Source: Celeribacter naphthalenivorans (GTDB lineage Bacteria > Pseudomonadota > Alphaproteobacteria > Rhodobacterales > Rhodobacteraceae). Taken from it: a stretch of 64,000 nucleotides of DNA. Under the pieces are notes generated by a model. The model was not told the origin of the DNA. It did no database searches and saw nothing but the letters and a program-made list of their open reading frames with translations. The position numbers and the translations under genes were made by a program. This document shows, piece by piece, positions 54,039 to 58,293 of this stretch. Position 1 is the first letter of the stretch, and the number at the start of each line of letters is the position of its first letter. The stretch lies in the NCBI RefSeq assembly GCF_020524585.1, contig NZ_JAIVLK010000006.1, positions 124,001 through 188,000 on the forward strand, in the 5' to 3' direction.

Positions 54039-54686
54039 TTATTCCGCAGGTGCCTCAGCCGGGGCTTCTTCAGGTGCGGACGGGCCTTCGCCATTCTTGG
54101 CGGCTTCATTCAGCTCGGTCACGTTGGTGTAGGCGGCGGTAAAGCCCGTGAGCGACAGCGTCAAACGCACCGGCTCATCGGTGCGGCCCAGCGGCACGAT
54201 GCCAACCATGCCTTCAGAACCTTTTTTCAACAGATCGACATCGGCGGTGGTCAGACCGGCACGCACGAAACAGCCCACGCGGTTGCAGAATTGGAACGGA
54301 TAGCGACGGCCGTTTTCGCCATCGACGAACAGCGCCAGCTGTGCGGTCAACAGCGTCTCAAGCGGCGTGGTAAAGGTCGCGGCGGCCTCGACCTCTTCGC
54401 TTCCGACGTGGAACAGCGCCACTTCGGCGACTTCGGTGCCGTCTTCGTCCTTCAACAGTTGATACATGCTGCACGGATCGACCTGACCCTCAGGCGCGTT
54501 GATGCAGCGCACTTCCCAATCGCCATGGGTCTCAAGCGTGTAGGCACGCCCGACATTGCTCTCCGGCGTGATCGGAGTGCCTGCGGAGAGGCCGGAATCC
54601 TGTGCCGCCAGCGGCAGGGCAGCAGCCAGCGTCAGAACGGTTGCAGAGGCGAGGGTCGTGATCTTGCGAGAGATGGAAAACATCAT
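54039..54686 (-). CDS. Invasion-associated locus B (IalB) family protein
   Basis: A 215-residue exported protein with a signal peptide (about 1-29, ending LAAQ) and an IalB domain: THGDWEVRCINAPEGQVDPCSMYQ opens it, and FQFCNRVGCFVRAGL carries the second cysteine pair, likely forming disulfides. The tail is rich in Ala, Pro and Glu. The family was named from Bartonella erythrocyte invasion but is widespread in free-living alphaproteobacteria, where its job is unknown. Two consecutive ATGs begin the frame. It is a single gene with a terminator downstream. Confidence 0.88.
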   Translation of the reverse strand: MMFSISRKITTLASATVLTLAAALPLAAQDSGLSAGTPITPESNVGRAYTLETHGDWEVRCINAPEGQVDPCSMYQLLKDEDGTEVAEVALFHVGSEEVEAAATFTTPLETLLTAQLALFVDGENGRRYPFQFCNRVGCFVRAGLTTADVDLLKKGSEGMVGIVPLGRTDEPVRLTLSLTGFTAAYTNVTELNEAAKNGEGPSAPEEAPAEAPAE

Positions 54687-54833
54687 CTGTCCATATATTG
54701 TTGGTGTCTGTGCTCAATTCCCCCAACGATCTATCACGGGCAATTGGCTCTGTCAGGGGGGAGGAGAGAATATTTTCGTGAGAGATGAACGCGGGCGGCA
54801 AAGGATGGCCGAGAGGTCGCAAAGGTGTTTGCA

Positions 54834-54857
54834 CTCAGGCGCAATCTCAGGCGCAAT
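54834..54857. repeat. Tandem duplication of a 12-bp unit
   Basis: CTCAGGCGCAAT occurs twice head to tail, followed by the start of a third copy. It lies in the non-coding gap upstream of ialB and has no evident role. Confidence 0.6.
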
Positions 54858-54889
54858 CTGGGAGACAAAATGCTGGCTATAAAATGACG

Positions 54890-54914
54890 AAAGCCCCGGC
54901 TGAACCGAGGCTTT
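54890..54914 (-). terminator. Possible terminator in the gap 54,687-55,127
   Basis: AAAGCCCCGG and CCGAGGCTTT pair over 10 bp (one wobble when read on the minus strand) with a 5-nt loop; CGTCATTTTA follows on the minus strand. It may be a fallback stop for the small RNA locus to its right. I see nothing else supportable in this gap; a 110-codon frame over it looks like chance. Confidence 0.4.
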
Positions 54915-55127
54915 CGCGGATCTCTTGGATCGCTCGAAATCTTATGATTTCTCTGATTGTCTCCCTGCCGGACTTGGCCGACTTATTGCGACGACGGTAT
55001 GACAGGTCATTTCGACCGTCAACGGGAATTTTGCGCCGAAAACCCGTATTCTACTCCAAAAAGCAACAGGATGTGCGACTGGTTGCGACAAGCTTGCACA
55101 GGTGGCGCGATCTTTGAATCTTAGGTC

Positions 55128-55237
55128 AAAAAAATGACCGCACCGGGAATGCCCCGGGCGGCCAGTCTGACAGGGAGGAAGTCAATCCGAACCGAAGAAG
55201 TGGTTCGGATAGCAATAGACTGGCACGAAGTGGTTAA
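55128..55237 (-). ncRNA. Candidate small RNA with a CCUCC anti-Shine-Dalgarno loop
   Basis: On the minus strand CTGACA and TACAAT (55274-55269 and 55249-55244) are 19 bp apart and could start an RNA near 55,237. The body folds as an 8-bp closing stem (GCCAGTCT/AGACTGGC, 55217-55224 with 55161-55168). It encloses a perfect 9-bp hairpin (ATCCGAACC/GGTTCGGAT) and a TGAC/GTCA hairpin whose loop is TTCCTCCCT. A terminator follows at once: CCGC-CCGGG / CCCGG-T-GCGG with a 5-nt loop, then TCA and seven Ts. Exposed CCUCC loops are typical of alphaproteobacterial small RNAs such as the CcsR/cuckoo group, which bind ribosome sites. The exact family is not identified. Confidence 0.6.
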
Positions 55238-55322
55238 TTAAGTATTGTAGCGGCATACGGGATTGAATTGTCAGGGTTTTGAGCGAGAATCATGCGCGCG
55301 CAATCTGACATAAACGACAGGG

Positions 55323-56909
55323 ATGGCTGAGATGGACCGGATTTTCGTGGGCGGCGGCGGAGAGGCCTATGGCGAGGCGCAGGAGCTTTTGCTTAAATAC
55401 GGCAACCGCCACGGGTTGATCGCGGGCGCCACCGGGACGGGCAAGACCGTCACACTGCAAATCCTCGCCGAAGGTTTTGCAGCGGCGGGTGTGCCGGTGT
55501 TTCTGTCGGACGTCAAAGGCGACCTGTCTGGCTTGGCGAAATCCGGCAGTGCGGAGAGCAAATTGCACGAGGCCTTCACCTCGCGCGCCGAGACCATCGG
55601 GTTGGGCGAGCGCTATAGCTACGAGGCTTTCCCGGTCACATTCTGGGATCTGTTCGGCGAACAGGGCCACCCGATCCGCACCACGGTGGCGGAGATGGGG
55701 CCGCTGCTGATCTCGCGGCTTTTAGGGCTTTCCGAGGCGCAGGAAGGCGTGGTCAACGTCGCGTTTCGCGTGGCGGACGAACAGGGCCTGCCGCTTTTGG
55801 ATCTCAAGGACCTTCAGGCGCTTCTGGTCTGGTGCGGTGAGAATGCCGACGATCTGACCCTGCGCTACGGCAATATCTCGAAATCCTCCATCGGCGCGAT
55901 TCAGCGCGATCTTTTGGTGCTGGAAAATCAGGGCGGGGACAAGCTGTTCGGCGAACCGGCGCTGGAGCTGTCGGATATTATTCGCTCCGACGTTGACGGT
56001 CGCGGCCGGGTGAACATCCTTGCCGCTGACACGTTGATGTCCTCGCCGGGGCTCTACGCGACCTTCCTTCTGTGGCTGTTGTCCGAATTGTTCGAAGAAC
56101 TGCCGGAGATCGGCAATCCGGACAAACCGAAGTTGGTGTTCTTCTTCGACGAAGCGCACCTCTTGTTCGATGACGCCCCGAAAGCGCTGGTCGACAAGGT
56201 GGAACAGGTCGCGCGTCTCATCCGGTCGAAAGGCGTGGGCGTCTATTTCGTGACGCAAAACCCGGACGACATCCCCGAGGACATCTTGGGCCAGCTTGGC
56301 AACCGGGTGCAACACGCGCTGCGGGCCTTTACCGCCCGCGATCAAAAGGCGCTGTCGCGTGCTGCCGAGACCTATCGCCCGAACCCGACCTTCGAGGTGG
56401 AAACCGCGATCAAAGAGGTCGGCACCGGCGAGGCGGTGACCTCGTTTCTGGAGGACAAAGGCGTGCCCGGCATTTCCCAACGCACGCTGATCCGTCCGCC
56501 GTCGTCGCAGCTTGGGCCGATCACGGCGGAGGAACGCGCTGGGGTCATTGCCGCCTCGCCGATTGCCGGGAAATACGAGGCGGTACTGGACCGCGAAAGC
56601 GCCTTTGAGATGCTCAAAGCCCGCGCCGAAGCGGCGGCCAAGGCGGCTGAAGTGCTTGAGGCGAAAGAGGAAGAGGTGGCAGGACGTGAGGCTTTGGAGC
56701 GCGAATTTTCCAAGGCGCGACGCTATGACGGCACGCACTATAGCCGCACATCCGCGCCCAAGCCGCCCAAAACATCGACGCGCACGCGCTCAACCGCGGA
56801 TCAAACCATCACCGAACAGCTCGGCAAAATGGTGATGAAAGAACTGACGGGCACCACCGGAAAACGTATCGTGCGGGGCATTTTGGGCGGGTTGTTCAAA
56901 GCGCGTTGA
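55323..56909 (+). CDS. HerA-like P-loop ATPase (DUF853)
   Basis: A 528-residue ATPase of the HerA/FtsK superfamily (DUF853, YjgR-type). Walker A is GATGTGKT in YGNRHGLIAGATGTGKTVTLQILAEGF, Walker B is KLVFFFDEAHLLFDDAPKALV, and the sensor region is GVGVYFVTQNPDDIPEDILGQLGNRVQHALRAFTARDQKAL. The C-terminal part has a charged coiled coil and a basic tail. The function is unknown; it is thought to be a hexameric DNA translocase-like protein. The start may be ATG 55323 or ATG 55332; the second is better spaced from GGG. It is divergent from the small RNA candidate. Confidence 0.88.
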   Translation: MAEMDRIFVGGGGEAYGEAQELLLKYGNRHGLIAGATGTGKTVTLQILAEGFAAAGVPVFLSDVKGDLSGLAKSGSAESKLHEAFTSRAETIGLGERYSYEAFPVTFWDLFGEQGHPIRTTVAEMGPLLISRLLGLSEAQEGVVNVAFRVADEQGLPLLDLKDLQALLVWCGENADDLTLRYGNISKSSIGAIQRDLLVLENQGGDKLFGEPALELSDIIRSDVDGRGRVNILAADTLMSSPGLYATFLLWLLSELFEELPEIGNPDKPKLVFFFDEAHLLFDDAPKALVDKVEQVARLIRSKGVGVYFVTQNPDDIPEDILGQLGNRVQHALRAFTARDQKALSRAAETYRPNPTFEVETAIKEVGTGEAVTSFLEDKGVPGISQRTLIRPPSSQLGPITAEERAGVIAASPIAGKYEAVLDRESAFEMLKARAEAAAKAAEVLEAKEEEVAGREALEREFSKARRYDGTHYSRTSAPKPPKTSTRTRSTADQTITEQLGKMVMKELTGTTGKRIVRGILGGLFKAR

Positions 56910-56963: not shown

Positions 56964-58259
56964 TCACATGTGCGACGCGCTGACATATTGGATCACAATG
57001 TCGCTTGCTGTGAGGGTCTCTGCGCTGGCCGTCACGCCCTCTGCCAGATGGATCACGAAGGGGGTGTCTTCCGCCCCGTCCTCGTAACTCAGATGGACCG
57101 TGTAGCTTCCTGCGTCGCTGTCGTAGGTCATATCGATGGCGCTGACAGGGGTGTCTTCGTCCACGTTGATTTGCAGCAGGTCTTCGCCGGGCGTAAAATC
57201 CGTCACCGTCGCCAAAACCGGATCAGCGCTCTCCTCTGTGCCGGTGAGGTCGGAGATGAAGGTGTCTGCGCCTTCGCCACCTTCAAGCGTGTCTTGGCCG
57301 TCGGTGACGATCAAAAGATCATCGCCAAAGCCTCCGACGAGCGTATCGTTGCCTGCGCCGCCAGAAAGTTCGTCGTTGCCGCTGCCGCCAGCGAGGTAGT
57401 CGTCGCCTTCACCGCCGTCCAGAGTGTCGTTGCCGCCACCGCCGCTGATGATATCCGCACCGGCATCGCCGGAGAGGAGACTGTCGCCATCGCCGTCCCA
57501 GATGCGGTCGTCGCCGTCGCCACCCGAAATGACATTTTCTCCGCCATAGTCGCGAATTGTGTCATCCCCCGCGCCTGCAAAGATTGCGTCATTGCCGGCG
57601 CTGTCCCAGATTTTGTCATCCCCGTCACCGCCGTCGAGAAAATCATCGCCGTAGCCGCCCTGCAAAATATCCGCGCCGTCCCCGCCGTAGAGCAGGTCAT
57701 CGCCTTCGCCACCGTTGAGCGTGTCGTCGTCATCGCCACCGGACAATGTGTCGTCGCCCGCGTCCCCGAAGAGGGTGTCGGCACCGGCATTGCCATAGAG
57801 AATATCGTTGCCCGCGTTGCCTTCGATGGTGTCGTTTCCGCCCCAGCCGAACAGCGTATCGTTGCCGTCCTGCCCATAGATCAGATCGTCTCCGGCGCCG
57901 CCGATCACGCTGTCGTCGCCGGCACCGCCATAGATCCGATCGTCGCCGCCGTTGCCGTTGAGCCTGTCATCCCCCGCATTGCCGTAGATCAGATCATTGC
58001 CCGCACCGCCGCCGATCACATCGTCACCGCCCAAACCGGCAAGGGTGTCATCGCCAGCATTGCCCCAGAGACGATCCGCCAAAGCGCCGCCATGAGTGTT
58101 GTCGTCGCCTTCTTCGCCAACGAAAACGGTGGCCGTGTCGGGCGCTTCGGGCTCGGGTGCATCGGGTTGCGATTGAGAGTGATCGTCGTCCGAGTCAAAA
58201 ATCTCGGTAAAGGCGTACACCATGGCCGATCCGGCCAGGACAGAGAAAAGAGACAGCAT
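56964..58259 (-). CDS. Membrane-anchored RTX (hemolysin-type calcium-binding) repeat protein
   Basis: A 431-residue acidic protein. A short hydrophobic segment (residues 1-22, LFSVLAGSAMVYAFTEIF) acts as anchor or uncleaved signal. From about residue 55 to 330 there are roughly thirty GGxGxDxLx nonapeptides (GNAGDDRLNGNGGDDRIYGGAG and variants) forming a calcium-stabilised beta roll. A C-terminal domain (TVTDFTPGEDLLQINVDEDTP) resembles the ends of RTX proteins. There is no adjacent type I secretion system. I use the start at 58259 (GGGG seven bases upstream) rather than the ATG five codons earlier. A CtrA-type box lies 35-50 bp upstream. Confidence 0.9.
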   Translation of the reverse strand: MLSLFSVLAGSAMVYAFTEIFDSDDDHSQSQPDAPEPEAPDTATVFVGEEGDDNTHGGALADRLWGNAGDDTLAGLGGDDVIGGGAGNDLIYGNAGDDRLNGNGGDDRIYGGAGDDSVIGGAGDDLIYGQDGNDTLFGWGGNDTIEGNAGNDILYGNAGADTLFGDAGDDTLSGGDDDDTLNGGEGDDLLYGGDGADILQGGYGDDFLDGGDGDDKIWDSAGNDAIFAGAGDDTIRDYGGENVISGGDGDDRIWDGDGDSLLSGDAGADIISGGGGNDTLDGGEGDDYLAGGSGNDELSGGAGNDTLVGGFGDDLLIVTDGQDTLEGGEGADTFISDLTGTEESADPVLATVTDFTPGEDLLQINVDEDTPVSAIDMTYDSDAGSYTVHLSYEDGAEDTPFVIHLAEGVTASAETLTASDIVIQYVSASHM

Positions 58260-58293
58260 AATAAAACCCCACACATGGTCCGCGAAATAGCGG

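Follow-up and report, generated by a model that had tools for sequence, protein, structure and literature searches.

A conserved CCUCC-type small RNA in Celeribacter naphthalenivorans and an adjacent candidate sponge RNA resembling a Shine-Dalgarno target

A small RNA of the CCUCC type, called sRNA1 hereafter, is encoded on the minus strand of the 64,000-nucleotide stretch of Celeribacter naphthalenivorans DNA analysed here (the window); it is real and widely conserved. Downstream of it, on the same strand, lies a second short unit, RNA2, whose promoter-like TTGACG sequence, 5' hairpin, GGGAG and terminator had gone unseen in the original prediction. The two units are complementary to each other, conserved, syntenic and present in nearly single copy. 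We consider it probable, with moderate confidence, that RNA2 is a Shine-Dalgarno-mimic sponge common to a family of CCUCC sRNAs, of which the reported sRNA would be both the neighbour and one client. The features of the locus are collected in Table 1.

Table 1. Features of the sRNA1-RNA2 locus and its neighbouring genes, with positions counted from the first letter of the window.
Feature	Positions	Strand	Remarks
IalB-family gene	54039..54686	minus	Pfam PF06776, E 9.5e-34; downstream of RNA2
RNA2, candidate sponge RNA	54881..54987	minus	about 107 nt here, ends inferred; downstream of sRNA1, same strand
RNA2 intrinsic terminator, 14-pair stem	54887..54917	minus	
RNA2 5' element GTCGGCCAAGTCCGGCAGGGAG	54961..54982	minus	hairpin GTCGG/CCGGC followed by AGGGAG; nearly complementary to the cores of sRNA1 and of SorX-type sRNAs
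RNA2 promoter-like sequence (TTGACG, 17 nt, TACCGT)	54994..55022	minus	conserved in the aligned loci
sRNA1, the reported small RNA	55128..55234	minus	about 107 nt; conserved box used to infer the 5' end, T run taken as the 3' end
sRNA1 intrinsic terminator, GC-rich, seven T ending at 55128	55128..55163	minus	98.1% of cells paired; two-sided changes (see text)
sRNA1 near-invariant core CTCCCTGTCAGACTGGCCG	55159..55177	minus	complementary to RNA2; CCUCC part also to Shine-Dalgarno sequences
sRNA1 apical hairpin, 9 bp, perfect, ATCCGAACC/GGTTCGGAT	55185..55210	minus	covariation
sRNA1 conserved promoter-like box ACAATACTTAATTAACC	55232..55248	minus	family form A..ATACA.nnTTAACC; no conserved -35; 93 of 97 promoters used
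HerA-like ATPase gene	55323..56909	plus	Pfam PF05872, E 2.7e-217; divergent neighbour

The original prediction placed a minus-strand small RNA at 55128-55274, and the letters that it named are all present on that strand: CTGACA at 55274-55269, a 19-nt gap and TACAAT at 55249-55244, the two arms of an 8-bp closing stem (GCCAGTCT/AGACTGGC), and TGAC/GTCA around TTCCTCCCT. The 175 nt from 55274 to 55100 fold at -52.7 kcal/mol (z = -4.7), with none of 200 shuffles as good. The prediction stands as regards an RNA of about 107 nt with an apical hairpin and a terminator; the closing stem, the TGAC/GTCA hairpin and the CTGACA box find no support in the comparison. Conservation, covariation and the terminator give good support to a small RNA whose CCUCC segment is exposed. 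A BLAST search of the own genome and 60 relatives found homologues of sRNA1 in 28 of these 61 genomes, 27 of them adjoining a HerA-like gene and 26 of these with an IalB gene on the other side, and all 26 homologues that were aligned sit between these two genes. A class-level match, L028, has neither neighbour and was taken as spurious. The covariance-model search that had been proposed as a check found 204 matching genomes among 248 of the family (one per genus, E<=0.001); some of the matches may be SorX-type relatives. Among the matches listed (150 places in each of the sRNA1 and RNA2 tables), sRNA1 is followed by RNA2 on the same strand, 14-401 nt away, in 104 of the 107 genomes that appear in both.

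Regarding structure, compensatory changes among the 26 aligned homologues affect all nine pairs of the apical hairpin and three of the six terminator pairs, and none is found in the closing stem or in the TGAC/GTCA hairpin. Altogether, two-sided changes occur in 12 of the 19 pairs counted (40 cells), a level that 0 of 500 shuffles reach. The closing stem pairs in 82.7% of cells compared with 83.1% in shuffles, which is no better. As for the hairpin loop in which the CCUCC motif was thought to be displayed, its TGAC/GTCA stem is paired in 77.9% of cells and broken in 22.1%. Judging from which stems covary, the supported structure of sRNA1 is therefore a hairpin, a C-rich core and a terminator, the core being probably unpaired. 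GGCCAGUCC of RNA2 and the 5' arm of the closing stem are alike in sense, so that this stem may reproduce the RNA2 duplex within sRNA1.

The core itself is invariant at 13 of 19 positions across the 26 sequences, with five more at >=90%, and TCCTCCCTG, which holds the CCUCC-type motif, is identical in 26/26. Complementarity to Shine-Dalgarno sequences in general had been offered as the explanation of this motif. It is insufficient, because the near-invariant stretch extends 12 nt past its CUCCCUG part and matches the adjacent RNA2. The small RNA itself and its resemblance to a CCUCC sRNA of Rhodobacter remain of the earlier interpretation, while display in a conserved hairpin loop, the proposed promoter and general Shine-Dalgarno pairing as the explanation do not survive.

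The CTGACA of the proposed CTGACA...TACAAT promoter is lost even in the nearest relatives. Across 93 sRNA1 promoters no -35 box carries information, and a conserved element, A..ATACA.nnTTAACC, is found just upstream of the RNA; the promoters were registered on TTAA, so that its 100% is by construction, and 4 of 97 promoters without TTAA were dropped. A shared element of this kind in the absence of -35 information suggests that the sRNA1 promoter is served by an activator or by an alternative sigma factor. Its TTAACC resembles a CtrA half-site. Scanning 54500-56000 on both strands for consensus promoters gave none, and the sRNA1 terminator is absent from the terminator-scan output.

RNA2 is present in all 26 aligned loci, L020 and L024 included; at L014, which has sRNA1, no RNA2 lies within the 600 nt shown. 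In 26/26 loci the TGAC of the -35 box and the first T, the A and the last T of the -10 box are invariant. The -10 box agrees with the E. coli consensus at 3/6 positions, and the promoter scan did not call the RNA2 promoter. The 5' hairpin is paired in 97.6% of cells, and two of its pairs show two-sided changes; as 17 of 500 shuffles do equally well, its support from covariation is modest. Past GGGAG the RNA is A-rich (57% A over 12 nt) and, by eye, no conserved start codon follows: none precedes the terminator in L017 and L027. A small ORF was therefore judged unlikely, though L018 and L025 have an ATG. By its sequence signals, RNA2 may be a noncoding unit with its own promoter and terminator.

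The family form of the RNA2 element is GUCGGCC(A)AGUCCGRCAGGGAG, and the own genome holds a single copy within 3 mismatches of this consensus. With one family genome taken per genus, a model of promoter and hairpin matches 213 of 248, leaving 35/248 without a match; among family genomes >=90% complete and <=5% contaminated the figure is 190 of 215, and among genomes drawn from the order it is 192 of 196, all belonging to the same family. RNA2 occurs once per genome among the matches listed, except in G219 and G331, which have two each. Scanning the collection for the element gave at least 119 stretches, with 80 among the matches listed; 77 of these are from Rhodobacterales, the three Streptomyces matches, which lack the promoter box and the neighbours, being left out. 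Among these 77 listed loci, TTGAC is found at a suitable distance in 76, the HerA-like gene at 69, the IalB gene at 70, and an sRNA1-like CCTCCCT upstream at 59 (60 regex matches less L195).

The position of RNA2 ahead of the IalB gene suggests another function, namely that of a terminated 5' leader of this gene, to which CCUCC sRNAs would bind and control readthrough by attenuation. Wherever the listed named loci include an IalB gene, it does lie downstream on the same strand (70/70), and the dcw cluster has such a leader in UpsM, as described in the accessible text (PMC5089854). Nevertheless, the distance from the element to the IalB start is variable (10th-90th percentile 190-309, extremes 128-1313 in the listed loci), and a separate promoter-like CTGACA stretch can be seen by eye past the RNA2 terminator, so that we regard a leader as quite unlikely. 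The identification of RNA2 with UpsM or a dcw leader was dropped, as the element is unique in the genome and adjoins the IalB gene.

The sponge reading rests on complementarity. The sRNA1 core CUCCCUGUCAGACUGGCCG is close to the reverse complement of the RNA2 element in 117 extracted pairs (123 loci were tried and six missed by the script). The core-element duplexes have a mean energy of -35.2 kcal/mol (range -45.8 to -28.2) compared with -16.6 for shuffled elements (best -31.1), and 117/117 pairs lie below each of their own 50 shuffles. True pairs are slightly better than swapped ones (-35.23 vs -34.99; 23 of 5000 permutations as good). At one site that co-varies, the RNA2 complement starts with TT for 8 of 9 sRNAs carrying T, against 16 of 95 carrying G (p = 2e-5 in Fisher's test, uncorrected for ancestry; 13 pairs that have other letters or indels there were excluded). 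Each of the two RNAs is almost invariant, which leaves their co-variation weak. Uncompensated mismatches occur in L020, L021 and L025, and an A.C mismatch lies mid-duplex in most pairs. At full length, sRNA1 and RNA2 of the window co-fold with a net energy of -13.4, a value within what 60 shuffled RNA2s give (minimum -13.9); their duplex energy of -54.5 is unremarkable beside 500 shuffles (mean -51.4, sd 5.6). Both values count against sRNA1 as the main client of RNA2 in the genome of the window.

The RNA2 element is also complementary to CCUCCCUGUUGGACU of SorX-type sRNAs encoded elsewhere in these genomes. The 15-mer CCTCCCTGTYRGACT has 69 occurrences in the 61 genomes compared with 1 for the reversed control, and 67 of the 69 copies fall in 32 of the 37 family genomes. 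Copies of the TCAGACT type lie at the sRNA1 locus (22 of 37 family genomes) and TTGGACT copies lie elsewhere. Besides sRNA1, the 15-mer picks out two SorX-type candidates in the genome of the window. The first, L057 (C5:327533-327591), has a LysR-type regulator gene on one side and a purL-like gene on the other (Pfam); its core is preceded by a GAGGAAACTC hairpin, and its terminator is GGCCGAGC. The second, L157, is found on contig C7 around 346142. The same 15-mer at L029 and a one-letter variant at L030, the two loci with the highest SorX scores, mark SorX itself, downstream of an OmpR-like gene (by Pfam for L029). In the window's genus, the assignment of sRNAs to the SorX type relies on the motif and on model scores that mostly fall short of the SorX cut-off. 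RNA2 is predicted to form, with each of the two SorX-type sRNAs of the own genome, a contiguous 15-bp pairing (G-U included) that leaves their terminators intact; the net co-folds of -20.0 and -18.9 kcal/mol are beyond all 60 shuffles each, and the duplex energies beyond all 500 shuffles each. By these energies, RNA2 in this genome pairs better with the SorX-type sRNAs than with its neighbour sRNA1.

The loci without sRNA1 bear on the same question. Among the matches listed, 43 genomes have RNA2 but not sRNA1, and 20 of these loci were fetched. RNA2 is intact without a recognisable upstream sRNA1 core in 10 of the 20 (L159, L162, L166, L167, L171, L173-L177), L176 and L177 showing what look like sRNA1 remnants; eight others have an sRNA1 core, that of L172 is degenerate, and L170 has both RNAs. 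Elsewhere in the genome, the 15-mer is present in 12/12 genomes searched, including all ten without a recognisable linked sRNA1; in G227 one unlinked copy is of the TCAGACT type. An intact RNA2 without a linked sRNA1, together with the 15-mer elsewhere, argues that selection seems to tie RNA2 to the whole CCUCC sRNA family rather than to its neighbour alone.

The same complementarity would be expected if the roles were reversed, the CCUCC sRNAs being the active partners and RNA2 their target, so that binding triggers its decay or a structural change in an RNA that has another job. A precedent for one sRNA promoting the cleavage of another is StsR acting on UpsM in R. sphaeroides, according to the available portions of PMC8307010 and PMC8625941. 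RNA2 consists mostly of a pairing element, an A-rich linker and a terminator, however, with a median length of 66 nt (70 of the 77 listed loci, those whose end the script could locate), so that hardly any space remains for a further function. It is also intact at the loci that lack a recognisable linked sRNA1. We hold this reversal to be unlikely.

Regarding mRNA targets, ACAGGGAGG followed by ATG is found at 10 sites in the own genome and at 0 for the reversed control. At least six of the ten lie at plausible gene starts, four of these in transporter genes: an ABC ATPase, an ABC permease and the TRAP transporter parts DctQ and DctP by Pfam, to which CcmF-like and flavoprotein-like genes are added by eye. 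The remaining four sites look like wrong frames or short ORFs. Candidate targets of the CCUCC sRNA among ABC/TRAP transporter and CcmF-like genes are located at C5:334529, C7:26367, C7:75760, C7:154051 and C7:161939.

With such sites at hand, sRNA1 could be an ordinary SorX-like or CCUCC sRNA directed at mRNAs only, its match to RNA2 being an old inverted duplication without a present role. The ten sites set against none in the reversed control, the core in common with SorX and the full-length pairing in the window that does not go beyond shuffles all fit this explanation. Against it, the RNA2 promoter and element match 192 of 196 genomes of the order, also where no linked sRNA1 is recognisable, and a relic would drift. 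A relic is thus very unlikely.

For the preferred reading of RNA2 as a sponge, the following mechanism can be proposed. The two small RNAs would be encoded in tandem and separately transcribed, RNA2 from its own sigma-70-like promoter. As a trans-acting CCUCC sRNA with a stable apical hairpin, an unpaired CUUCCUCCCUGUCAGACU seed and a terminator, sRNA1 would repress mRNAs whose ribosome-binding site resembles ACAGGGAGG, presumably with the help of Hfq. RNA2 would act as a noncoding sponge, its small 5' hairpin and GGGAG mimicking an extended Shine-Dalgarno target, and its 5' end would pair over 15 to 20 bases with the seeds of sRNA1 and of SorX-type sRNAs made elsewhere. Constitutive RNA2 would then set a threshold below which CCUCC sRNAs have no effect. 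More generally, most or nearly all members of the family may carry one dedicated, short and constitutive Shine-Dalgarno-mimic RNA gene as a common sink for CCUCCCUGUYRGACU sRNAs (SorX, sRNA1, the purL-linked sRNA and others), with the SorX-type core conserved beyond its anti-Shine-Dalgarno part because of RNA2, and the reported sRNA arising beside it as a linked client or antagonist; this wider proposal could equally well hold or fail.

If true, a sponge with its own gene would be found across a large marine and phototrophic family, complementary to sRNAs that include the photooxidative-stress sRNA SorX. RNA2 may soak up sRNA1 and its relatives and so set how strongly genes get switched off. 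The threshold idea of sRNA control would become directly testable, and the conservation of the SorX-type core well past the needs of anti-Shine-Dalgarno pairing would be explained.

Several known systems can be compared. SorX (Rfam RF02784, derived from a 3' UTR in R. sphaeroides) has the same CCUCCCUGU.RGAC.UGGCCG-like core as sRNA1, with the terminator directly after it. Unlike SorX, sRNA1 comes with a promoter-like box of its own and a different, covarying apical hairpin, and it is flanked by HerA-like and IalB genes rather than located in the 3' UTR of an OmpR-type gene. Processing by RNase E is a further mark of SorX. The RF02784 model scores 19.5 bits on sRNA1 (E 0.052), below its cut-off of 46.6; at the sRNA1 locus of a family relative, G025, it scores 48.6, above the cut-off. 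As both the Rfam score and the gene context fail, sRNA1 was not filed as SorX. SorX is stress-responsive and represses the transporter gene potA, according to the accessible text of PMC9438474.

In the CCUCC-motif class, the CCUCCUCCC anti-Shine-Dalgarno sRNAs RSs0680a (which we take to be CcsR) and SmelA075/SmelA099 have a C-rich anti-Shine-Dalgarno motif, as sRNA1 does, and the invariant motif of sRNA1 sits, as in that class, in a conserved structured sRNA, whose flanking hairpin and terminator covary. While their motif lies in two to four hairpin loops, as far as the available text of PMC3927594 goes, sRNA1 has one near-invariant stretch that is probably unpaired and far longer than its anti-Shine-Dalgarno part. 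StsR and UpsM of R. sphaeroides, which belongs to the same bacterial group, resemble sRNA1 and RNA2 in that one sRNA would pair with another. The dcw cluster has UpsM as its leader, 206 nt long, in the part of PMC5089854 at hand, whereas RNA2 is a short unit at a different locus, with promoter and terminator signals of its own.

Among sponges, RNA2 would resemble SroC (for GcvB) and SkatA (for PrrF1) in titrating sRNAs by target imitation. RNA2 has the extended conserved seed complementarity characteristic of sponges, strongest for the SorX-type sRNAs. SroC and SkatA derive from mRNAs, as do the sponge RNAs of the review literature, which come from few model species (accessible text of PMC9438474), whereas RNA2 appears to be a dedicated gene, beside one client and complementary to several. 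No sponge of SorX or CCUCC sRNAs was found in the literature listings searched or in the available text of PMC8307010, PMC8625941, PMC5089854, PMC9438474, PMC6238624, PMC3927594, PMC4809877, PMC5107571 and PMC3413700. Published sRNA lists for Ruegeria pomeroyi and Paracoccus denitrificans, in their accessible portions, did not establish a match to RNA2 or sRNA1 (PMC4809877, PMC5107571). Rfam at gathering scores and ARAGORN returned nothing in the window, the sub-threshold Rfam matches BSnc120, STnc450, suhB and WT1-AS_5 were taken as chance, and the plasmid collection gave one weak match only (27% of the query, E 0.1).

Two minor observations can be added. Adjoining the HerA-like gene, at window positions 56964-58274 on the minus strand, is an ORF with RTX calcium-binding nonapeptide repeats (Pfam PF00353, 11 stretches). 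Elsewhere, same-strand SorX-type motifs or SorX-model matches are found 150-205 nt apart at G147:C1:2876243/2876412, G253:C3:381912/382065, G225:C35:29538/29742 and G020:C9:60608/60791; these pairs probably represent SorX-like sRNAs duplicated in tandem, in several genera.
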